Shown here one piece after another: positions 14,448-26,334 of a stretch of 64,000 nt of DNA. The position numbers and the translations under genes were made by a program. Positions within the stretch are counted from its first letter, which is position 1. The number at the start of each line of letters is the position of its first letter. This stretch comes from Limibacter armeniacum (GTDB lineage Bacteria; Bacteroidota; Bacteroidia; Cytophagales; Flammeovirgaceae): assembly GCF_036880985.1 (NCBI RefSeq), contig NZ_JBAJNO010000009.1:2702501-2766500 (forward strand), read 5' to 3'. The notes under the pieces were generated by a model that saw nothing but the letters and a program-made list of their open reading frames with translations, searched no databases and had not been told where the DNA came from.

Positions 14448-16310
14448 TTATTTCTTTATCAACACTTCGTTGCCTCTATTGTTAAAGTCTGTATAGATGC
14501 TTTGCATATAGGCTTTCGGGATATTGAGTGTATCGCTATTCTCAGTTCCCTTGTTGACAATATATTGTTTACCAACATTGTCATAAATCAATTCAAGAGA
14601 GTCTGAAACAAACCCGTAACCATCATTTAAAGTATAGAATGCAAAGTTGTTTGACTCAGAGGATAGTAGGTTTTTACCGAATTTGTATCGCTTATTGATA
14701 TCCAATTGGTGGAGAACGGTAGTAGCAATATCTGTTTGAGAACCGTATTTACTGACTACAGTGTCCTGAACAGCCAATGCGCCTCCTGTCCAAACCATCG
14801 GGATCTGGTAGCGTTCTCTTGAGTAATATTGGATGTCATCCTTGTATAAGGCGCCATGATCTCCAGTGATAATCACTAACGTATTATCCCACCAAGGTTG
14901 CTTTTTGGCTTCAGAGATAAATTCACCTACACATTTGTCAGTATAGTAATAGGAGTTTAAAAACATGTTTGTTTTATCTTCTCCCGGAAAAGCTTTAGGC
15001 TCTAAAGGAACATCAAATGGTTCGTGGCTACTGATAGTCAAAGTAGTCAAGAAGAAAGGTTTGTCCTGTGGTTTAGTATTCAGCTCATCTAAGATTCTTT
15101 TGAATACATGCTCATCGTGTACGCCCCATTTCGTTGTCCAAAGTTCCTGTGGAAAGTCCAGTTTGTGAATAACCTTTTCAAATCCAGCGATATTGAAATA
15201 GGAATTGAAGTTGGCAAAGTTGACATCATTACCGAAAATAAATTCAGTATCGTAACCATGTTTTCTTAAGTCCATGCTAAGGAAATCCATTGTTTCAAGC
15301 TTGTTGTTAAACTTGATAATGGCTGTTTTAGGCTGACTTGGATAGCTACTCAAAACTCCCGGTATTCCCTTGTCAGTTCGGTCTCCAGTTGCATAGAAAT
15401 TAGAGAACAAGACACCTTCTTTAATTAGTTTGCTTAATTGTGGTGTGACACCTTTTTCAGGCCCCAACTCTTCTACAATCTGTGCGTTCAAACTTTCCCA
15501 GACGATAAGGATGATATTAGGACGGTCAGTCTTAAGCAGTTTGGTCGTTGTTCCATTATCTTTATACAGATCGGTAAATATTTGTTCCGTGTTTTCCTTG
15601 TCAAAGTAATTATTAGGATAGCGAGTCTTGTTGAATTTGGTCAGTGAGTAAAAGGCGTTCCAAACTACATTGATTGCTGAGTGGTTTGGGTATGGCTGTT
15701 TATGAAAGTAGACAAATCCAATATTCATTGGAGCCACATCAAAACTGCTTCGGATTGGGACAATAAGTAGTGCAGTTAGTATGATAAAGGCCAATCCCTT
15801 CACCCAATTGATTGGTGATAGTAGATTGAATTGTTTAGCCACCACTCGCAAATAAAATCTGAATCCTACCCAAACAGTTAATAGAAGAATAGGGATCAAC
15901 TTTAATGTAGTACCTATTGGGGCTACGTTTGTTAGGTTATTGTCCCCTCCTATATAGTTCAGTGGCGTAGCATCTAGTCTGAATCCCCAATGTCGATACA
16001 ATTCCATATCAACTGCTACTAAAAATGCCGAAATCAGCATCCAGAGTAGTGTGTAGAAATTAATGACAGGTCTGATAAAACTCCCTTTAATTCCCACAGT
16101 CAACGCTATAATAAGACCTGGAAGCAATGTAATATATCCCGCCATTGCCATATCCATACGTGCACCGTTTAGCATGGCAAGGAACCAATCTGTTATAGGA
16201 TATTCGATTGTCTTGTCCCAGTTATATGCCATGAACAAGGCTCTTGTACCTAAGAAAAAAACTACCCAAAAAAAGAAGTAGGAAAAGAATATTTTGACTC
16301 TTGCCTTCAT
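14448..16310 (-). CDS. LTA synthase-like sulfatase-fold membrane protein
   Basis: A 620-residue inner-membrane protein. About five hydrophobic helices occupy the first 200 residues and a periplasmic alkaline-phosphatase-superfamily domain (PF00884) follows. The metal and nucleophile region is visible: ILIVWESLNAQIVEELG, then FYATGDRTDKGIPGVLSS with the Thr of TGDRTDKG as probable nucleophile, and VIITGDHGALY near residue 490. Relatives include Gram-positive lipoteichoic acid synthase and the OpgB/MdoB and phosphoethanolamine transferase groups. In a Gram-negative cell a role in transferring phosphoglycerol or phosphoethanolamine to envelope glycans is more likely than true LTA synthesis. The substrate is unknown. 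Confidence 0.85.
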   Translation of the reverse strand: MKARVKIFFSYFFFWVVFFLGTRALFMAYNWDKTIEYPITDWFLAMLNGARMDMAMAGYITLLPGLIIALTVGIKGSFIRPVINFYTLLWMLISAFLVAVDMELYRHWGFRLDATPLNYIGGDNNLTNVAPIGTTLKLIPILLLTVWVGFRFYLRVVAKQFNLLSPINWVKGLAFIILTALLIVPIRSSFDVAPMNIGFVYFHKQPYPNHSAINVVWNAFYSLTKFNKTRYPNNYFDKENTEQIFTDLYKDNGTTTKLLKTDRPNIILIVWESLNAQIVEELGPEKGVTPQLSKLIKEGVLFSNFYATGDRTDKGIPGVLSSYPSQPKTAIIKFNNKLETMDFLSMDLRKHGYDTEFIFGNDVNFANFNSYFNIAGFEKVIHKLDFPQELWTTKWGVHDEHVFKRILDELNTKPQDKPFFLTTLTISSHEPFDVPLEPKAFPGEDKTNMFLNSYYYTDKCVGEFISEAKKQPWWDNTLVIITGDHGALYKDDIQYYSRERYQIPMVWTGGALAVQDTVVSKYGSQTDIATTVLHQLDINKRYKFGKNLLSSESNNFAFYTLNDGYGFVSDSLELIYDNVGKQYIVNKGTENSDTLNIPKAYMQSIYTDFNNRGNEVLIKK

Positions 16311-16579
16311 GAAATTTGTTCCAAATAAGTACTTAAGATAGTTGAGGTAATCTTCATAATCATGTATTGAAAGAAGAAGGTGCCCATTATCAGGACGATG
16401 CGCAAAGGTAGATATTAATTTATTGTGAAGGTATAATCACTTGTTATTTCAACCTTCTTTGCCTGTATCAGTATTCCTGTAATGTAAATGCCCTTTTAAA
16501 CAATAATTCATGATGGTAGTCAGCTAAATTATTGAGTCTTTCTCGATGCTGATTTCAAGACCTATAAAACCCAATTATC

Positions 16580-19500
16580 ATGAAATTGTTGCCACAACTA
16601 GCACTGTTAGGCTGTTTACTTTACCCTTCTGTACTCTTTTCCCAATCAGATGTATTATTAAAAGAAGACTTCTCAACCTCACTTGATACAGCTCCACATG
16701 TATGGCAACAGTATATAACTTCTACAGGTTCTTTGCCTTCAGGCAGTTTTGTTATTAATACTCAACAAACATTACAATCCGATTTTTCAGGTGGTTCGGG
16801 AACACGAAAAGTAGCTTTTTCAAGTAAGGTAGAAGGAATAAGCGCTGAAGCAGATGAATTGGTTTGGGAATTTGATGTGCAGCATAACTTTTCTTTAACA
16901 GTCAATACAGCGAAAACAAACCAATCAAGGATATTTCTTTGGAGTAGTGCTGAAGATCTTAATAGTAGTGTAGAGGGATACTACATTATGGTCAATGATG
17001 GGGTTTCATTATATCGCCAAGATGGAGAAGAGTCTGCAGCTACTTTATTACACCAGACTAGCTTAGTACTTGACCAACCAAGCATTTCTGTAAAAGTAAT
17101 TCGAGAGAAAGGGGGAATCTGGAAGCTGTGGGTAGATAGTATAAGTCAAGGGACAGTGACTGATAATAGCTACCAACCGAATGGGTGGTTTGGCATACAA
17201 GCAAGGTTTAGTGCAGCTTCTCGAGGGACTTCTTTTTACTATGATAATTTTTCCATTACCCAAACTATTCACCCTCAAGCGCCAGATATAGCACCACCAG
17301 CGATCGAGTCAATCAATCCGCAGGCAGATAATTCTATTTCAGTTGTATTTGATGAATCAATAGCTGACGTTAACATCTCACAAGTAGTAATTCAATCAGT
17401 GTCTTTAGCTGATGTGTTTACAGATGGACGTCAATTAAGCATTGAGTCAATCACTGATTTTGAGCAGGACAGTACTTATTTATTGGAGTTGACAAATATC
17501 TCTGATACATCAGGCAACCTTTTATCAATTGATACGGTGTTTGTTTTTCCTGACATTAGATCACCCTCAGTAACTTCATTTAATACAGTTAATAATCAAA
17601 TACTTGAAATTGAATTTTCAGAATTTATATCAGACCTGTCTAGTCACTATTTTCTTTTAGATGGAGTTGAGCCAACATCTGTAGTCAGAAACCAGAATTA
17701 TGATTTGAGATGGTTTTTACTTTTTGATGAAGCATTTAGAGAGAATAAAGCTTTAGAGCTTTCAATTGAACAATTACAAGATGATAGTGGTAACCAGTTG
17801 GATACATTATTAACCTTTACTATTGATACAAAAAGGCCTTCTATAACAGAACTGAAAGTATTAAATGACCATTCCTTAGAATTGCATTTTTCAGAGTCTG
17901 TAGATAGTTCAACAGCAAAGGCCATAAACCATTATGAAATTCAAGAACTAGGTTTATTTCCCGAAACTATAGAAGTAAATGGATCATTAATTCAATTGTT
18001 TTTTAACGGTGTTTTTGAGCAGGAGCAGACCTATGAATTAACTGTACGTTATGTAAAAGACATTGAAGGTAATGTACTAACAACTAAAACATTGTCTTTT
18101 AGCTATGATACTTTACCACCAATCTTAACCACAACTACATTTCTTTATCCTGATGTCATTTCATTGACTTTTTCTGAGATCATCAATTCAAATATTTCTT
18201 TAAATCAGATGAACTTGTCAGAAGTAGGTGAGCCTGATTCGATCTTTACTTATGGAGAGAAATTGTGGTTGTATTATTCTGATTTAGGCCAACAAGACTA
18301 CGAGCTTATACTTTCAAATATAGAGGATGTATTAGGAAATAAACAGCCTCAACTGACGACAACTTTTTCAACAGAAGTGACTGAATTAAGTAAAGTGTGG
18401 GTTACTGGAATGAAAACATTGAGATTGCATTATTCCAATCCAGTGTTAACTAATTCGGTAACAGATTTTGCTCTGAATAATTCAGAAAATCCAATTTCAA
18501 TTACGACGGATGAAAATAACAATGCAATACAAGATTTGACTTTTACTAACTCATTTCTTGAGGTACAGTGGATGGATTTATCCCTTCTACACTTAGATAC
18601 TACTGTCCAGCTACAATACCAATCCTCTGTTACAGAGATTAACGTCATTTCTGCTCAAACAATAGAGGTGAATTTACGGGCTAATCCTTCTCAAATATTA
18701 CCATCAGACTTTACGATTGATGGAATAGAAATTTTTGCAATTCAAAGGGATGTAGGAATCTCGAATCGATATTACCTCTTAACCGAAAACCTCTCACAAA
18801 ATCAATTATATACACTCAGAACGAATAAAATCCACCTTCCTGACAAGGAGTATTTACCAGCTTCCGAAATAAATTTTATTTGGGATCAACAGTATCCGAA
18901 AGTATTGGCAGTAAGGATTACAGCTGAAAATGAACTGACAATAGTATTCGATGAACCTTTAGAAAAAGTTAATTCTGAAATATTTAATCACTATGAAATC
19001 AGTGAAATAGGGATTTCAAATTATGCTGATTTACAAGGAGAGAAGGTTGTGATTCAATTTGATACTTCTCTTGAATTCGGTATCGACTATAATTTAAACC
19101 TGAAAGGGATTGTAGATGAATATGGTAATGTGATTTCAGATACTACTATTCAAATTCGAAGAGATTTTCCACCTAGAGCCGGAGAGTTGTTTTTGAATGA
19201 GCTGATGGTGACACCTACAGAAGGAAATTCTGAATATATAGAGCTTTACAATGCATCGGATAGGTTGTTACAGCTATCAGAAGTTAGGCTTTCGGATAAT
19301 ACAGGTAGTACCTCATTACCATATTTTGAGTTATCAACAGGAGAGTATGTCGTGTTATGTCCTAAGGGATATGAAAAAAGTTATCAACAATCTGGGCATG
19401 TTTTGGGGATAACTAATTGGAGAAGCTTAAATAATAATGTTGATAACATTCAACTTACTAACACAGAGAATGAGCTTATTCACAATGTTGAATACAATAG

Positions 19501-22500
19501 TGAATGGCTCCCAGACAGTGTTGGGATATCTATTGAACTATTTGATTATCAGTATTTTTGCTTGAAAAAAGATGTGTGGATATCATCAAAAGATACATCA
19601 GGAGGTACACCCGGAAAAATTAATAATACTGGTTATTCACAATTTACATTAACACCTTTCAACATAGTTTCACACAATGTTGTGGATAACTATACTCTTC
19701 AGTTAACTTTTTCTAGACCTCTAAATAGAGATACTCCTCCAAATGTTGATAACTTTTTGATTTTTCCAGAATCTGTTATCGACTCCGTTCACATTCTAGG
19801 AGAAAATGAATTAGAAATCCGTTTTTTCAAAAACTTATCAACAGGGGAAAAATATGAACTGACGGTTTTGGGCATAAAAGATTGCTCAAACCGTGAATTG
19901 GCGACAACAAAATTAGAGATCATCAATGGAAAAGTTCCAGACATTGGTGAACTGTTATTTACTGAGATATTTTTTGATCCGCTTCCTAAATATGGTTTAC
20001 CTGAAGGTGAATTTCTTGAAATCTATAATCCGACCGACAAAATTCTAACAACAAAAGAGTGTCAGATTTTGATAGGGAACAGTTCAGCAAATTTACCAAA
20101 TATGGTGATATACCCTAAGCAATTTGTACTTCTTTGTGATGAAAAAAAGGTGGATTTATGGAATAATTATGAAAATGTGGTTGGAATTCCAGATTGGAAA
20201 GGATTAAACAATGATGGAGATACAATTTCAATTATTCATTTGTCTGATACAATTTTCTCGACTTATTATCATCCGAGTATGTTGGGGGATAAAAAAGAAG
20301 GTGGGTTTTCACTTGAAATGGTAAGTCCAAATGCTATTTGTTTAGGTGTTGATAACTGGCGAGTATCGGAGGATCCATCTGGAGGATCGCCTTCATCCAT
20401 TAATTCTGTTGATGGAATTGATTTTTTACCTGAATTCACTGTCTCATCTCTTTCTCTCGTGGATAACTCAATTGTTCACATCGAATTTTCTTCTGAAATC
20501 GATGAATCAACAGCCTTATTTGTTGATAACTTTATCATTTCTAATAAAATCTTACTGGATTCCATCCAAATTGTTGAAAACAATACTGTGGAAGTCTCAT
20601 TTCTCAAAAAGTTATCAACAAAGTCAAGCTATCAATTTAGAATTTCAGGAATTAAAGACTGTCTCGGAAGAAATTTGTCTGATTCAACATTTATCATTAG
20701 GCCATTTTTAAATCCAAAAGAAGGTGAACTGTTGATAACTGAAATATTTTCAGATCCAATCCCTTCATTTGGACTTCCAGAAAGTGAATTTATGGAAGTT
20801 ATCAACATGACAGATCATAACCAGACTTTAAGTGAAGTGAAATTAGAGATTGGTGAATTGTTGATAACTCTTCCTGATTCAGTCATTGGTCCAAATGAAA
20901 GAGTTATTCTATGTGATAAAGGGGATGTTGATAAGTGGAGTGCTTATGGGATTACAATTGGTGTTGATAACTGGAAAAATTTACCTAATTCAGGTAGTAA
21001 AGTATCATTACTTACTGAAAATCAAATAATTAACAGTATTGTTTATAATGTTGAAATGCTTGAAAATCACAGTGATGGAGGATATTCACTAGAGTTGATA
21101 AATTCAGGTTTAACTTGTTTAGGTGTTGATAACTGGAAGGTTTGTGAAAGTTTATCAGGTGGTACTCCTGGAACAATCAATTCTGTGGATAATGTTGAAT
21201 CAATTCCTGATTTTCAAATTATGGAAGTCAAAATTGTTGATAACTCATTGATAAAAATTATTTTTTCTGCAGAAATCAATGAAAAACAACTGTTTAGTGT
21301 TGATAACTTTTCGATTTTTCCACTTAATCCCATATCATCTGTGGATATTGTGGATAAAAATGAATTAGAAATCCGTTTTTTCAACAAGTTATCAACAGGA
21401 ATTGAATATGAAATTACATTGCCCACTTTTCAGGATTGCGCTGGCAGGAATTTACACATTCCTAAAATGATTATCCCCAATGGCAAAATTCCTCATTATG
21501 GTGATTTGTTGATAACTGAAGTATTGCCTGATCCAACTCCATCTGTTGGCATGCCTGAAAGTGAATTCATTGAAATCTATAATCAGACAGATAGTATTCT
21601 AACTACCGAAAATGGTTTTCTTTTAATTGGAGCCAGATTAGCAAAGTTACCAAATATGGTGATTTACCCTAAGCAATTTTTACTTCTTTGTGATGAGTCA
21701 GAGTTAAACTTATGGGAAAACTATGAGAATGTAGTGGGAGTACCTGATTGGAATAGCTTAAACAATGAAGAATCGAGAATTTCTTTATTGCATTTATCAG
21801 ATACAATTTCTTCGATGGTATATGATAGGCGAATTTGGAATTATCAACAATCTGGAGGACATACATTAGAAATGGTAAGTCCACATGCTATTTGTTTAGG
21901 TGTTGATAACTGGCAAATATCAAATGATCCATCAGGAGGATCACCAAATACAGCTGACTTTGTTGATAACATTGATAATTTGCCCGCTTTTTTTGTCAGT
22001 TCTACCAAAATTGTGGATAACTCGACTATTCAGTTAGAATTTTCAGTAAAAATCAATGAAGAAATCGCTGAAAATGTGAATAACTATCGCGTAAGCGAAA
22101 AAATTTTTTTTGACGTAGTCAAAATTATAAATCCAAAGACAGTAGAAATCACTTTTTTACAAAGTTTATCCACAGAACAAGCTTATCAATTAGAAATTTC
22201 AGACCTAGAAGACTGTCTAGGCAGAAAATTACCAACAAAGACGATTGAAATATTGATAGGAAAAGCTCCAAATCCATTGGATTTGTTGATAACTGAAATA
22301 TTTTCTGATCCATTTCCAACAATAGGCTTACCAGAAAGTGAATTTCTTGAACTTATCAACAATTCTGATCATAATATTTCAACACAAGACTGCTATCTAA
22401 AAATAGGTGAGGTAGAAATCAAACTGCCAGAAACCATTATAAAACCTTCCGAACGAATTATTTTATGTGATGCTGATGATCAACATCTGTGGATAACTTT

Positions 22501-23890
22501 TGGAAGAACATTGGGAATTGAGAATTGGAAAGCATTGAATAATGAAGGAACCAAAATTTCCATTTTGGATGTGAATAAAAAAGTGATTTTTCAGGTTAAC
22601 TACGAAACTGGTTGGTGGGAAAAAGAAAAAAGAGATGGGGGATGGTCACTGGAACTAATAGATATCAACAGTAACTGTTTTGGGCGAGAAAATTGGAGAG
22701 CTTCTGTTGATAAAAGTGGAGGTACACCTAGTAGACAAAATTCAATTCAAGGTATGTATCTTGATACAAGCTCGCCTGAGTTAGTTAAGTATGAAATCAT
22801 AGGAAATGATACTATCAAATTAGAGTGGAATGAAAGTATAGATAGCACTTTTATAAAATTAGAAAAATACAATTTTAGTTTATCTGTTAAAGAAGTCTTT
22901 TTAGAAGAAGTAAATCCTGACGAAATATATCTGATTTTATCAGATAGCTTAGAGAAAAATAGAGTCTATAATTTGATTATTAGTGGAATATATGATTGTA
23001 GTGGGAATGAGGTGAAAAATAAAAGAGTGGAATTAGTAAGACCATTAGTTGCTAATTTTGGAGAGGTAAATCTTTCTGAAATACTATTTAATCCAAAAGT
23101 TGGAGGTGTAGATTTTGTTGAGATTTACAATGTTTCAGATAAGCACTTAAGTTTACAGAATTGGCAGTTAGTTAATCACAATCAAGAAGCGCACACATTA
23201 TTGAGCGAAAGTCATGTGTTTTTTCCTAACTCCTTTCTTATTCTTACAGAATCTGCCGAAAAATTTAGGAGTATTTATCCTACTGTACCAGACTCATTAA
23301 TATTGGAAATGGAAATGCCATCATTTCCTAATGAAAAAGGTAGTGTGATTTTGCGTAACCCTAATGGAGAGGAATGGGAAAGGTATGATTATGATGAAGA
23401 CCATCATTTTGAATTACTTAAAAATGTTGAAGGTGTTTCTTTGGAAAGGATTGATTATAGTGCACCAGTGAATGATGCTAACAATTGGAGATCGTCCTCA
23501 GGTCAGTCAGGTTATGCTACTCCGGCAGCTCCTAATTCACAAAGGAGAATTTCGGGTAATCCTAAAATGGAAAATGAATGTTTTGTAATGGATTCAGATA
23601 TTTTTTTTCCAGAAGGAACAGGTTCAGTAAATTTTACCTCCTTACAGTATAAATGTAACTCAGCAGGATATACAGTTACTATTACTATCTTTGATAGATA
23701 TGGTCAGCAGGTTCGAAAATTGGTGGATAATCAGCTATTGACTTCAGAAGGTTTTTATAGATGGGATGGAACCAATCAGTTGGGACGGTTGGTAAAGCAG
23801 GGTGCCTACCTTATCAGAATTGAAATGTTGAATTTAAGTGGAGAAAGTTCAATAGTGATGAAAAAGGTAGTGATAGGAAGACGCTTTTGA
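16580..23890 (+). CDS. Giant secreted lamin-tail/Ig-repeat surface protein
   Basis: A 2436-residue exported protein. A signal peptide (about 1-21, LLPSVLFSQ-like end) is followed by a jelly-roll-like N-domain to about residue 225, then tandem SbsA/Big_5-like Ig domains (PPAIESINPQ, SPSVTSFN, RPSITELKV and others) to about 860. Six lamin-tail domains start near residues 866, 1125, 1381, 1640, 1899 and 2160 with motifs such as GELLITEIFSDP and EFLEIYNPTD. The last 70 residues (ITIFDRYGQQVRKLV, WDGTNQLGRLVKQGAYL) resemble a FlgD_ig/CHU_C-like sorting tail, so type IX secretion is likely. The repeat part (19.2-22.7 kb) carries a dense array of DnaA-box sequences. Its surface role (adhesion or matrix) is inferred from architecture. 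It is unlinked to enzyme genes and followed by rpmE. Confidence 0.88.
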   Translation: MKLLPQLALLGCLLYPSVLFSQSDVLLKEDFSTSLDTAPHVWQQYITSTGSLPSGSFVINTQQTLQSDFSGGSGTRKVAFSSKVEGISAEADELVWEFDVQHNFSLTVNTAKTNQSRIFLWSSAEDLNSSVEGYYIMVNDGVSLYRQDGEESAATLLHQTSLVLDQPSISVKVIREKGGIWKLWVDSISQGTVTDNSYQPNGWFGIQARFSAASRGTSFYYDNFSITQTIHPQAPDIAPPAIESINPQADNSISVVFDESIADVNISQVVIQSVSLADVFTDGRQLSIESITDFEQDSTYLLELTNISDTSGNLLSIDTVFVFPDIRSPSVTSFNTVNNQILEIEFSEFISDLSSHYFLLDGVEPTSVVRNQNYDLRWFLLFDEAFRENKALELSIEQLQDDSGNQLDTLLTFTIDTKRPSITELKVLNDHSLELHFSESVDSSTAKAINHYEIQELGLFPETIEVNGSLIQLFFNGVFEQEQTYELTVRYVKDIEGNVLTTKTLSFSYDTLPPILTTTTFLYPDVISLTFSEIINSNISLNQMNLSEVGEPDSIFTYGEKLWLYYSDLGQQDYELILSNIEDVLGNKQPQLTTTFSTEVTELSKVWVTGMKTLRLHYSNPVLTNSVTDFALNNSENPISITTDENNNAIQDLTFTNSFLEVQWMDLSLLHLDTTVQLQYQSSVTEINVISAQTIEVNLRANPSQILPSDFTIDGIEIFAIQRDVGISNRYYLLTENLSQNQLYTLRTNKIHLPDKEYLPASEINFIWDQQYPKVLAVRITAENELTIVFDEPLEKVNSEIFNHYEISEIGISNYADLQGEKVVIQFDTSLEFGIDYNLNLKGIVDEYGNVISDTTIQIRRDFPPRAGELFLNELMVTPTEGNSEYIELYNASDRLLQLSEVRLSDNTGSTSLPYFELSTGEYVVLCPKGYEKSYQQSGHVLGITNWRSLNNNVDNIQLTNTENELIHNVEYNSEWLPDSVGISIELFDYQYFCLKKDVWISSKDTSGGTPGKINNTGYSQFTLTPFNIVSHNVVDNYTLQLTFSRPLNRDTPPNVDNFLIFPESVIDSVHILGENELEIRFFKNLSTGEKYELTVLGIKDCSNRELATTKLEIINGKVPDIGELLFTEIFFDPLPKYGLPEGEFLEIYNPTDKILTTKECQILIGNSSANLPNMVIYPKQFVLLCDEKKVDLWNNYENVVGIPDWKGLNNDGDTISIIHLSDTIFSTYYHPSMLGDKKEGGFSLEMVSPNAICLGVDNWRVSEDPSGGSPSSINSVDGIDFLPEFTVSSLSLVDNSIVHIEFSSEIDESTALFVDNFIISNKILLDSIQIVENNTVEVSFLKKLSTKSSYQFRISGIKDCLGRNLSDSTFIIRPFLNPKEGELLITEIFSDPIPSFGLPESEFMEVINMTDHNQTLSEVKLEIGELLITLPDSVIGPNERVILCDKGDVDKWSAYGITIGVDNWKNLPNSGSKVSLLTENQIINSIVYNVEMLENHSDGGYSLELINSGLTCLGVDNWKVCESLSGGTPGTINSVDNVESIPDFQIMEVKIVDNSLIKIIFSAEINEKQLFSVDNFSIFPLNPISSVDIVDKNELEIRFFNKLSTGIEYEITLPTFQDCAGRNLHIPKMIIPNGKIPHYGDLLITEVLPDPTPSVGMPESEFIEIYNQTDSILTTENGFLLIGARLAKLPNMVIYPKQFLLLCDESELNLWENYENVVGVPDWNSLNNEESRISLLHLSDTISSMVYDRRIWNYQQSGGHTLEMVSPHAICLGVDNWQISNDPSGGSPNTADFVDNIDNLPAFFVSSTKIVDNSTIQLEFSVKINEEIAENVNNYRVSEKIFFDVVKIINPKTVEITFLQSLSTEQAYQLEISDLEDCLGRKLPTKTIEILIGKAPNPLDLLITEIFSDPFPTIGLPESEFLELINNSDHNISTQDCYLKIGEVEIKLPETIIKPSERIILCDADDQHLWITFGRTLGIENWKALNNEGTKISILDVNKKVIFQVNYETGWWEKEKRDGGWSLELIDINSNCFGRENWRASVDKSGGTPSRQNSIQGMYLDTSSPELVKYEIIGNDTIKLEWNESIDSTFIKLEKYNFSLSVKEVFLEEVNPDEIYLILSDSLEKNRVYNLIISGIYDCSGNEVKNKRVELVRPLVANFGEVNLSEILFNPKVGGVDFVEIYNVSDKHLSLQNWQLVNHNQEAHTLLSESHVFFPNSFLILTESAEKFRSIYPTVPDSLILEMEMPSFPNEKGSVILRNPNGEEWERYDYDEDHHFELLKNVEGVSLERIDYSAPVNDANNWRSSSGQSGYATPAAPNSQRRISGNPKMENECFVMDSDIFFPEGTGSVNFTSLQYKCNSAGYTVTITIFDRYGQQVRKLVDNQLLTSEGFYRWDGTNQLGRLVKQGAYLIRIEMLNLSGESSIVMKKVVIGRRF
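19170..23060 (+). repeat. Tandem 777-bp lamin-tail/Ig repeat units
   Basis: Homologous positions recur at 777-bp steps (259 residues). One column of matching 9-mers starts at 19,744, 20,521, 21,298 and 22,075; another at 19,835, 20,612, 21,389 and 22,166; another at 20,730, 21,507 and 22,284. Units two apart are more alike: a shared stretch reading TGCTATTTGTTTAGGTG occurs near 20,333 and 21,887 (1,554 bp apart), and GAATTAGAAATCCG near 19,809 and 21,362. This suggests duplication of a two-unit block after the first duplication. Confidence 0.85.
19381..22713. promoter_or_regulatory. Dense DnaA-box array inside the coding sequence
   Basis: Exact 9-mers read by eye. TTATCAACA on plus at 19381, 19835, 20612, 20799, 21389, 21841, 22353. 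The same on minus at 19438, 19744, 20347, 20521, 20730, 20859, 20926, 20962, 21124, 21235, 21298, 21507, 21901, 21961, 22284, 22705. TTATCCACA on plus at 22166 and on minus at 19681, 21184, 21349, 22012, 22488. TTATTCACA on plus at 19476 and 19633 and on minus at 22075. That is 32 in 3.3 kb. TTATNCACA is the established DnaA consensus; TTATCAACA differs by one base and dominates here, so it may be the preferred box of this lineage. Elsewhere, outside this gene and its 3' flank, a hand scan found only four exact matches (about 1854, 14456, 38122 and 58220). Origin or DnaA-titration function is inference. Confidence 0.7.
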
Positions 23891-23952
23891 GATGCATTAA
23901 CACATATAGGTTCTTTTTCCAAAGAAAATCAGCAACATATTCTCAATCATAG

Positions 23953-23983
23953 TTGATATGTTGTTGATAATGTTTTAATTTTG
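23953..23983 (+). promoter_or_regulatory. rpmE promoter containing a DnaA box
   Basis: TTG at 23,953-23,955 and TAATTTTG at 23,976-23,983 with a 20-bp spacer match the Bacteroidota promoter pattern. A TGTTGATAA box (23,962-23,970) lies wholly inside the spacer, so a protein bound there would overlap RNA polymerase. Confidence 0.5.
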
Positions 23984-24031
23984 CAATCCGATTTGAGTTC
24001 ACGAAATAGAAAATTTATAATTCATAAGGAC

Positions 24032-24274
24032 ATGAGACAAGGAATCCATCCTGAATATAGAGAGGTTGTATTTCACGACCTGACAAGCGACGAGAAATTT
24101 TTGACTCGTTCAGCTATCGAAACAAAAGAAACAATTGACTTCGAAGGCGAGACTTACCCACTGATCAAAGTGGAAATTAGCTCTGCTTCTCACCCTTACT
24201 ACACAGGTAAGAAGTCAGCTATCAACAAAGCTGGTAGAGTTGAGCGTTTCAACAAGAAATACGGAAGAAGCTAA
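24032..24274 (+). CDS. rpmE2: 50S ribosomal protein L31, type B
   Basis: An 80-residue protein of the large ribosomal subunit. I choose the ATG at 24,032 because [16 protein letters not shown] is the canonical N-terminus; a TTG at 23,981 would add an implausible tail and overlap the promoter. The zinc-binding CxxC of type A L31 is absent, and the C-terminus [13 protein letters not shown] is typical of the type B (zinc-independent) form. It is a single gene with its own promoter and a very strong terminator, just downstream of the DnaA-box array. Confidence 0.95.
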
Positions 24275-24302
24275 GCCAATCTGTTCTTGTAGATTCTAGA
24301 AG

Positions 24303-24336
24303 CGTCACAATCGTCAAGATTGTGACGTTTTTTTTT
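24303..24336 (+). terminator. Rho-independent terminator after rpmE
   Basis: A perfect 10-bp stem, CGTCACAATC (24,303-24,312) with GATTGTGACG (24,318-24,327), a 5-nt loop and a run of nine T residues. Confidence 0.92.
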
Positions 24337-24348
24337 GAATTGGGCTTC

Positions 24349-24464
24349 CTGTATACCCAAAATATACAGAATAATAGCATGAATCAGCTATATTGCATGC
24401 TGTGTACTGAATAACAATAAATTTTAAAGGGGAGTGCTCATAATGTGGGCTTTAGGTAACCCCT
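24349..24464 (+). other. Possible structured leader before the GlmU-like gene
   Basis: Three stem-loops follow one another: CTGTATA/TATACAG (24,349-24,369), AGCATG/CATGCT (24,376-24,401) and AGGGG/CCCCT (24,428-24,464). They lie 75-190 nt before the start codon. They may form a regulatory 5' leader, but I match them to no known riboswitch. Confidence 0.3.
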
Positions 24465-24538
24465 GAGTGTGTACAAATATTACCTAGCTACTATCAACTC
24501 ATTTTATTTTTTAAAGCTATTTGACAATTACAAAGACA

Positions 24539-25726
24539 ATGAATGTAATTCTGTTTGATGATCCTGAGAACAGGGTGAATCTATTGCCATTTACATTTGT
24601 TCGTCCTGTATCAGCATTGAGAGTGGGAATCATGACTCTTGCAGAAAAGTGGGAAAAGGCATTGGGTACGGATGTATCTTACCTTACTCAGGATTATTTG
24701 CAGGAAAAATTCCCTTTGCAGGCAGGCAGTGACAACTTGTATATAAATGCTTCTGTATGTCCGAATTCAGAATTGGTAGATCGGATTCATAAATTGAAGG
24801 AGGGACAATGTCTAATGTGGAAAGATGAACTGCTTGCAGTTCGTACTATGGAACATTTTAGAGATCCTTCGGAGGTTTCGGCTACTAAATACGTACAGAA
24901 GGATATAGTGATAACACCAGTGATTATCAGGTATCCATGGGATATTTTTATTAATACCCGTAATCAGATAATTGCAGACTTTCCTGTTGTGACAGAAGGT
25001 AGAAAAAGTGCTCCAATTGAAGATCGCTTCACAGTAGTATATGGAGAGGAAAACATTTTTGTTGAAGAGGGAGCAAGTATACGAGCTGCTATTCTGAATG
25101 CTGAAAAAGGACCTATCTATATAGGTAAAGGAGCTGAGATCCATGAAGGCTCAGTAATCAGAGGGGCATGTAGTATTGGAGAGGGAACCAAGATCAACAT
25201 GAGTGCAAAAGTTCATGAGGATTGTAGTTTTGGACCTTATTGTAAAGTTGGAGGAGAGGTGAGTAACTCAGTATTTCAAGGTTATAGCAATAAGGGACAT
25301 GATGGTTTCCTAGGAAACTCTGTATTGGCTGAGTGGTGTAATTTAGGTGCAGATACAAATACTTCAAACCTCAAAAACAATTATGGTGAGGTGAAGGTTT
25401 GGAATTATAAAACCCGAAACCTGATTGAAACAGGTCAGATGTTTTGTGGGTTAATGATGGGAGACCATTCAAAAGCAGGTATTAACACGATGTTCAACAC
25501 AGGTACTGTAGTTGGTGTAAGTGCAAATATCTTTGGCGGAGGTTTTCCAGATAAACATATTCCTTCATTTGCGTGGGGAGGGATAGAAGATACAGTAACT
25601 GCAGATTTCGATAAAATGTGCGAGGTGGCAACAGCCGTAATGGGGCGTCGTCATGTAGATTTTACGGAGGTAGATAGGCAGATACTAAAACGTGTGTTTG
25701 AAATAACAGCTCTAGACCGAAATTAG
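24539..25726 (+). CDS. GlmU-like sugar nucleotidyl/acetyltransferase
   Basis: A 395-residue protein with a nucleotidyltransferase-like N-domain (MNVILFDDPENRVNLLPFT) and a left-handed beta-helix of hexapeptide repeats from about residue 165 to 340 (GKGAEIHEGSVIRGACSIGEG and similar). It belongs to the Bacteroidota-type alternative GlmU group, proposed to supply UDP-GlcNAc synthesis where classical GlmU is missing. The usual pyrophosphorylase signature GxGTRM is absent, so the uridylyl activity cannot be read from the sequence. The ATG at 24,539 is preferred over a TTG 18 bp upstream. It begins a compact rightward run with the 2H phosphoesterase gene (26 bp gap) and aguB. Confidence 0.85.
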   Translation: MNVILFDDPENRVNLLPFTFVRPVSALRVGIMTLAEKWEKALGTDVSYLTQDYLQEKFPLQAGSDNLYINASVCPNSELVDRIHKLKEGQCLMWKDELLAVRTMEHFRDPSEVSATKYVQKDIVITPVIIRYPWDIFINTRNQIIADFPVVTEGRKSAPIEDRFTVVYGEENIFVEEGASIRAAILNAEKGPIYIGKGAEIHEGSVIRGACSIGEGTKINMSAKVHEDCSFGPYCKVGGEVSNSVFQGYSNKGHDGFLGNSVLAEWCNLGADTNTSNLKNNYGEVKVWNYKTRNLIETGQMFCGLMMGDHSKAGINTMFNTGTVVGVSANIFGGGFPDKHIPSFAWGGIEDTVTADFDKMCEVATAVMGRRHVDFTEVDRQILKRVFEITALDRN

Positions 25727-25752
25727 CGACATTCAATTGTCGTATTTAGACA

Positions 25753-26334
25753 ATGATCGCATTAGACTTTGCAGTGATTCCGCCTGACAATTTGTTGGAG
25801 GAATCTATTGCGGTAAACCGTCAGCTTGGTGATACCCAGCTTTTGCTGGAAAAAGAGCATACGGTTCCGCATATTTCTGTTTGTATGTGTTTAGCCCGTG
25901 AGGAAGACTTACCTCAAATCACCCATGAATTGTCAGAAGTGGCAAAACAATTTCAAGTGAAAGCCCTGCATGTTGAAAGTATATACAGACATGGAGAGGA
26001 AACTATTGGGTGGAATGTGAAAAAAGAAGCTTGGCTTGAACATCTTCATGATGTGTCAGTGGCAATTATGTCCAAGTACCATCATACAATAGCATTAGAT
26101 GATACTTCATGCTTTGCATGGGTTAGTGAACAGAATCCAACTTCAGGTCTCCGATACTTGAACCATTATTTTACCCAGTATGCCTATGAGCATTTCTATC
26201 CACATATTACGATAGGGAAAGGTTATACGGATATGTTGGAAAGTAAAATTGGGAAAAGTTACGACGGAGGGCACTTAGCTTTGTATCATTTAGGGTCAGG
26301 TTGTACGTGTCAGAAATTGATTCAGCGTTTTTAA
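25753..26334 (+). CDS. 2H phosphoesterase superfamily protein
   Basis: A 193-residue soluble protein with two H-x-[ST] motifs, PHISV near residue 35 and PHITIG near 154, spaced as in 2'-5' RNA ligase/cyclic phosphodiesterase (2H) enzymes. The family acts on 2'-5' or cyclic phosphate bonds of RNA or small nucleotides. The substrate here is unknown. It lies 26 bp after the GlmU-like gene and 42 bp before aguB, consistent with one transcript. Confidence 0.75.
   Translation: MIALDFAVIPPDNLLEESIAVNRQLGDTQLLLEKEHTVPHISVCMCLAREEDLPQITHELSEVAKQFQVKALHVESIYRHGEETIGWNVKKEAWLEHLHDVSVAIMSKYHHTIALDDTSCFAWVSEQNPTSGLRYLNHYFTQYAYEHFYPHITIGKGYTDMLESKIGKSYDGGHLALYHLGSGCTCQKLIQRF

Follow-up and report, generated by a model that had tools for sequence, protein, structure and literature searches.

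Why should a long open reading frame for a putative secreted protein of Limibacter armeniacum carry dozens of exact matches to the 9-mers bound by the replication initiator DnaA? The window, the whole stretch of 64,000 nucleotides analysed here, corresponds to C9:2702501-2766500 of an assembly (G000) of 8.04 Mb in 9 contigs, and the features discussed below are collected in table 1. The ORF of the host gene is intact across the array, and the array is coding. Its protein matches the Pfam families LTD (6.6e-42), Big_5 (1e-30) and FlgD_ig (5.7e-5), the C-terminal FlgD_ig-like stretch scoring 23.5 bits, which is below the cut-off of 27; secretion is a putative assignment, read by eye from the N-terminus. 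NCBIfam gave no match for the host gene, and Rfam gave none across 16000-26000.

Table 1. Features of the host gene and the predicted DnaA-box array (window positions).
Feature	Position	Strand	Description
Host gene	16580..23890	+	ORF, 2436 aa, putative secreted protein with Big_5 Ig-like and LTD (lamin-tail) domains
Predicted DnaA-box array	19331..22713	.	34 exact TTATC[AC]ACA/TTATTCACA boxes, median spacing 67 bp
Box block 1	19331..19843	.	8 boxes
Box block 2	20347..21515	.	15 boxes
Box block 3	21841..22713	.	11 boxes
LTD+Ig repeat unit 1	19184..19948	+	8 boxes
LTD+Ig repeat unit 2	19949..20725	+	3 boxes
LTD+Ig repeat unit 3	20726..21502	+	11 boxes
LTD+Ig repeat unit 4	21503..22279	+	7 boxes
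LTD+Ig repeat unit 5	22280..23062	+	5 boxes

We counted as a box any exact match, on either strand, to the 9-mers TTATCAACA, TTATCCACA or TTATTCACA. An earlier, sequence-only reading of the locus had placed 32 boxes in 19381-22713; the array is real and the exact count is 33 starts (23, 6 and 4 of the three 9-mers, respectively), with one more at 19331 bringing the host gene to 34. The whole window holds 41 boxes, eight of them outside that interval and seven outside the host gene, where a hand scan beyond the gene and its 3' flank had found about four. The recount agrees that the boxes use five of the six strand and phase combinations (reverse phase 2, 18 boxes; forward 0 and reverse 1, five each; forward 1 and forward 2, three each), and the absent combination, TGT TGA TAA, is indeed the one that would place TGA in frame. 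The spacing of the boxes gives no clear signal of helical phasing (resultant 0.29 at 10.5 bp, calculated from 75 dependent distances).

The array far exceeds what the composition of the gene would provide. Synonymous codon shuffles of the host gene (n = 500) yield a mean of 6.29 boxes (sd 2.07), and codon-order shuffles (n = 200) a mean of 0.69 (maximum 4); set against the 34 observed, these means indicate that peptide content raises the expected number of boxes about ninefold and codon choice a further fivefold. The sequence-only reading had named two outcomes that would undo its claim, a similar count after codon-preserving shuffling and many other genes of equal box density: the former reached at most 14, and among 723 ORFs of at least 120 aa, sampled from 53 stretches of the same genome (958.8 kb unique), one carries 34 boxes and the next two carry three each. 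Across the 8.04 Mb, TTATCAACA occurs 236 times, 24 of them inside the host gene (106 for the backwards-word control), and TTATCCACA 128 times (control 85), and the extended site AGTTATCAACA is found 32 times, 17 of them in the array (control 5). Selection also appears to reach the base adjoining the 9-mer: flanking Asn codons are AAC or AAT in a ratio of 13:1 at boxes of the own gene versus 37:136 elsewhere (p = 1e-7), and the same flanking codon in the orthologues gives 33:3 at boxes versus 226:1089 elsewhere.

Close same-strand pairs of TTATCAACA were found in 20 of 148 genomes in an order-wide scan (four for the backwards control), comprising 8 of the 11 sampled genomes of the family, the own genome included, and 12 of the 137 others; 11 of these 12 have a single match and one has three. 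Four of the five pairs in the own genome lie in the array and the fifth in a cluster on contig C8 that is described below. Separately, a triplet of TTATCAACA with identical spacing is present in three copies (G000, C8:23328-23561, C8:2830476-2830709 and C9:11765-11998); the one copy inspected has no ORF of at least 250 aa around it and perhaps belongs to an rRNA operon. In a genome from another family of the order, four boxes fall within 44 bp (G075:C77:8650-8693), perhaps the oriC of that genome.

The host gene is repetitive, and its boxes might be a by-product of duplicated LTD/Ig units whose peptides VDN, LST and LLIT happen to be written in box-like codons. The five units share 26-54% mutual identity and their boxes fall into 19 alignment columns, of which seven (21 of the 34 boxes) repeat with strand and phase unchanged across two to four units, one has boxes on opposite strands in two units and eleven are private to a single unit, so that some boxes were multiplied by duplication and others arose or stayed singly. 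The number of boxes is therefore not driven by DNA alone, the LTD/Ig units having been duplicated, and both the recurring columns and the rise in expected boxes from 0.7 to 6.3 by peptide content speak for the by-product explanation. As a full account of the array, however, a protein-repeat artefact is rejected by the synonymous shuffles, by the homologues and by the conservation of box codons (below); the use of five strand and phase combinations also tells against it, and we regard it as very unlikely.

A profile of the C-terminal part of the host gene found an orthologue in all 18 genomes of the family that were searched, the relatives all coming from outside the window's own genus, and in 12 of the 18 the orthologue carries at least five boxes: 34 in G000, 15 in G004, nine each in G012 and G016, seven in G002, six each in G001, G008, G010, G015 and G017, and five each in G013 and G014. 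It is boxless in G003, G005, G007, G009 and G011, and in G006, where it is split over two contig pieces, these carry 0 and 1. Relative to 300 shuffles, the excess is large in G000 and G004 and modest in the other ten, of which the g3 genes of G013, G015 and G017 equal the shuffle maximum and the other seven exceed it. Outside the family, the best 80 of 577 confirmed homologues from a separate named collection (none named as a member of the family, although the set includes unplaced MAGs and ORFs truncated at contig ends) carry at most two boxes each; hence the boxes track lineage and not protein fold, and the LTD fold was rejected as their cause. In G004, moreover, the 15 boxes occupy about 675 bp, and for 14 of them the start precedes that of the LTD domain, within a segment where no LTD or Ig unit is recognised by eye, which likewise tells against the by-product explanation. 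The boxed segment of G004 has no in-frame stops, whereas the two remaining forward frames have 15 and 24, and the peptide ahead of the LTD domain may owe its existence chiefly to the boxes in its DNA.

Codon usage within the boxes separates selection on DNA from selection on protein. Among nine orthologues of group g3, which is probably Flammeovirga, 1164 directed comparisons of box codons with an unchanged residue give 1025 identical codons (88%), where the behaviour of those codons outside boxes predicts 607 (52%); these counts are not independent because the sequences are related. The codon AAC within these boxes is kept in 175 of 178 cases (48.5 expected); codon identity in the main-cluster region is 562/639 in boxes versus 910/1384 beside them, and g3 pairs at 30-35% protein identity still give 100/116 in boxes versus 146/233. 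No synonymous excess is seen at the g3 boxes 3' of the main cluster (50/87, 57%, versus 56%), and these boxes may therefore have arisen by chance or recently. The earlier view that selection on DNA is likely has thus been borne out by the shuffles, the 12 of 18 family genomes, the flanking base and the identity of box codons, which together strongly support the conclusion that selection acts on the DNA of the host gene and not on the protein alone.

The presumed binder of these sites is DnaA. Among the 16 TTATNNACA words, the array contains 24 CA, 6 CC and 4 TC variants (3.75, 1.90 and 0.47 expected), and the same three are the commonest in the oriC intergenic stretches of 12 genomes (CA 49, CC 21, TC 28; 0.60, 0.22 and 0.46 expected). 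TTATAAACA occurs 18 times in these oriC stretches and once in the array. The 11 other box-bearing genes are enriched in TTATCAACA (68 versus 15.1 expected) and TTATTCACA (7 versus 1.7) and show no excess of TTATCCACA (5 versus 5.5). Another protein that shares the motif, of a nucleoid or segregation type, could be proposed as the binder on the strength of this missing excess and of the G that precedes the 9-mer in 24 of 34 array boxes versus 29 of 98 oriC boxes; yet all three of the variants common at oriC exceed expectation in the host gene, a coincidence hardly to be expected of an unrelated factor, and we hold such a protein to be highly improbable. The array boxes belong to an extended type whose affinity is probably high. 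The only PF00308 match in the genome is dnaA itself, which is identified as DnaA by TIGR00362 and has solved DnaA proteins among its relatives, so no Hda-like paralogue was found in the genome.

An array of this kind could be the chromosomal oriC, here inside a coding sequence, and this was one of the two functions that had been put forward for it. The array is the largest box cluster that we found, and the GC-skew switch is no more than about 77 kb away. Third-position GC skew in 5-kb bins turns positive at C9:2645-2650 kb, about 72-77 kb upstream of the array (C9:2722-2725 kb), and it is already positive throughout (23/23 bins; overall skew 20/23) between C9:2650 kb and the window's final complete bin, which weighs against an origin at the array. 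Samples of 20 kb on C9 agree, being negative in 16/16 cases up to 2630 kb (-0.025 to -0.144) and positive in 5/5 from 2780 kb (+0.045 to +0.105). Just past the switch, on the far side of mnmG and an additional ORF, an intergenic stretch of 986 bp with 73% AT contains six boxes (C9:2656402-2656850), and this cluster is likely the oriC of G000. The gene dnaA, at G000:C9:2403898, and the likely oriC, at C9:2656402, are some 250 kb apart, so that dnaA is no origin marker in this genome.

A boxed intergenic region beyond mnmG recurs in 14 of the 16 family genomes with an mnmG match, and in G008 and G012, as in G000, it lies near a skew switch. Overall skew in G008 changes sign near 3430 kb, becoming positive, with eight boxes at 3440.5-3441.3 kb beyond mnmG; third-position skew is noisier there to either side, and a single remote sample (2600 kb) runs against the trend. 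Third-position skew in G012 (20-kb bins) is negative in 7/7 bins between 2980 and 3120 kb, then about zero in the bin with the boxed region past mnmG, and then positive in 8/8, although the overall skew of the positive side is weak. Relative to the region matching the likely oriC, the orthologue of the host gene is 185 kb to the right in G008 and 137 kb to the left in G012; in G000 the gene is on the right arm. The array resembles oriC in its dense boxes and shared variants, but it is coding, has no skew switch and sits within an arm; the conserved box-rich intergenic region by which oriC would be recognised is the one beyond mnmG, not the array. With the switch and the conserved mnmG cluster 65-77 kb away, and the gene on either arm in relatives, the proposal that the array is the chromosomal origin has to be given up as extremely unlikely.

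Contig C8 shows positive third-position skew in 18 of 19 samples between 60 kb and 2.26 Mb and negative skew in both samples beyond 2.5 Mb, and we infer that C8 joined to C9 would give arms of about 3.2 and 3.1 Mb. An intergenic cluster on this contig (G000:C8:1108563-1108770) packs six predicted boxes, three of them AGTTATCAACA, into about 200 bp, some 2.0 Mb from the likely oriC if the two contigs are joined. It was considered as the origin of a second replicon and rejected, skew being positive on both sides, and is possibly a DARS-like locus or a second sink.

Titration is the remaining one of the two functions first suggested, and in our judgement the best reading of the sequence. We propose that the 3' half of the host gene probably has a dual use, encoding LTD/Ig repeats and serving as an oriC-proximal sink of DnaA boxes, with occupancy by DnaA and a limiting effect on initiation as its predicted consequences. 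The array lies about 65 kb from the likely oriC on the right arm, about 1% of a 6.35-Mb chromosome if C9 and C8 form one replicon, and at this proximity each initiation would quickly be followed by its duplication; free DnaA would be taken up by the newly made boxes, and re-initiation would thereby be delayed (initiator titration). The box array would have expanded together with the protein repeats.

Position is conserved in keeping with this model. In all seven of the 18 genomes in which both genes lie on one contig, the nearest gene-mnmG distance is about 71-200 kb and transcription of the orthologue points away from mnmG; six of the seven are box-bearing, G005 is boxless and G014 assumes a circular contig. 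Distance to the oriC region, but not the arm, is thus conserved among the seven, and because the boxless gene of G005 lies at a similar distance, position alone proves nothing. G003 and G007, whose gene has 0-1 boxes, still have a boxed region beyond mnmG, and with 6 of 18 family genomes at 0-1 boxes the sink would be dispensable or replaced there. Three g3 genomes have further origin-proximal clusters about 75-80 kb from mnmG (G008:C1:3512055-3512421, G012:C1:3213465-3213939 and G010:C98:127510-128845), the last with nine boxes within an ORF of 445 aa (1.64 on average and at most 4 in 100 synonymous shuffles); they suggest that origin-proximal sinks form a broader group, with the host gene as its extreme member. 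Around the likely oriC, boxes in the mnmG region of G004 and at three g3 loci extend several kilobases into coding genes, and a 648-aa ORF near the likely oriC of G012 has six (shuffle mean 0.55, maximum 3).

The array might instead act on the nucleotide state of DnaA, by datA-like ATP hydrolysis or DARS-like reactivation, and so go beyond titration. Passages of one study describe E. coli datA as working mainly via ATP hydrolysis (PMC5835720), and the array contains three matches to the IHF consensus (0.65 expected; three or more in 3 of 500 synonymous shuffles), from which datA-like action may be envisaged. Two of the three matches, however, overlap a box, and the boxes thus account for part of the excess; the array is irregular and extends over 3.4 kb, whereas datA is described in another paper as about 1 kb with five boxes (PMC5295017). 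Action on the nucleotide state is accordingly unlikely in our estimation. Returning to the titrating sink, it is possible, and we advance this only tentatively, that the lineage has co-opted a coding gene as its principal device for initiator titration, with DnaA boxes shaping the codons of that gene and even the duplication of its domains.

If the sink is real, replication timing would be set by a multi-box sponge within a gene for a secreted protein, a clear case of regulatory DNA dictating codon choice and perhaps also peptide content and domain number. Since no Hda-like paralogue was found and 17 of the 32 extended sites lie in one gene, the locus would offer a clean natural test of titration, in which synonymous recoding removes the sites and keeps the protein. 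Initiator titration in E. coli has been in dispute for decades. Among listed titles and opening lines of abstracts (few subscription journals, no bioRxiv), neither an in-gene DnaA-box array nor titration in Bacteroidota was found, and the passages of Flammeovirga literature covered describe no DnaA boxes. According to the abstract of a 2025 paper, experimental evidence for titration was lacking before its own work (PMC12371093).

Three known systems invite comparison, and a sink in this gene would operate much as the first two do. E. coli datA is portrayed in passages of three papers as a DnaA-box cluster outside oriC that keeps a conserved relative distance and lowers initiation (PMC5835720, PMC4585315, PMC5295017); the array is likewise a chromosomal cluster outside oriC, of 34 boxes, at a distance from the oriC region conserved in seven genomes. 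However, datA is non-coding, with about five boxes, an essential IHF site and an action exerted chiefly by ATP hydrolysis, and since the array lies within an intact 2436-aa ORF we do not class it as a member of datA. The DnaA-box clusters of B. subtilis also lie outside the origin; passages of one paper report that deleting all six leads to early initiation, with a strong effect only when all six are removed, and state elsewhere that they have no significant role (PMC5295017). Those are six separate clusters, whereas here the main array is in one gene. Finally, passages on E. coli describe boxes gathering near oriC and a chromosome that titrates DnaA, with 72 motifs around oriC in 10-centisome windows and enrichment in E. 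coli strains and Salmonella (PMC12371093); that enrichment is broad, and what we find in L. armeniacum is one dense array within an ORF.
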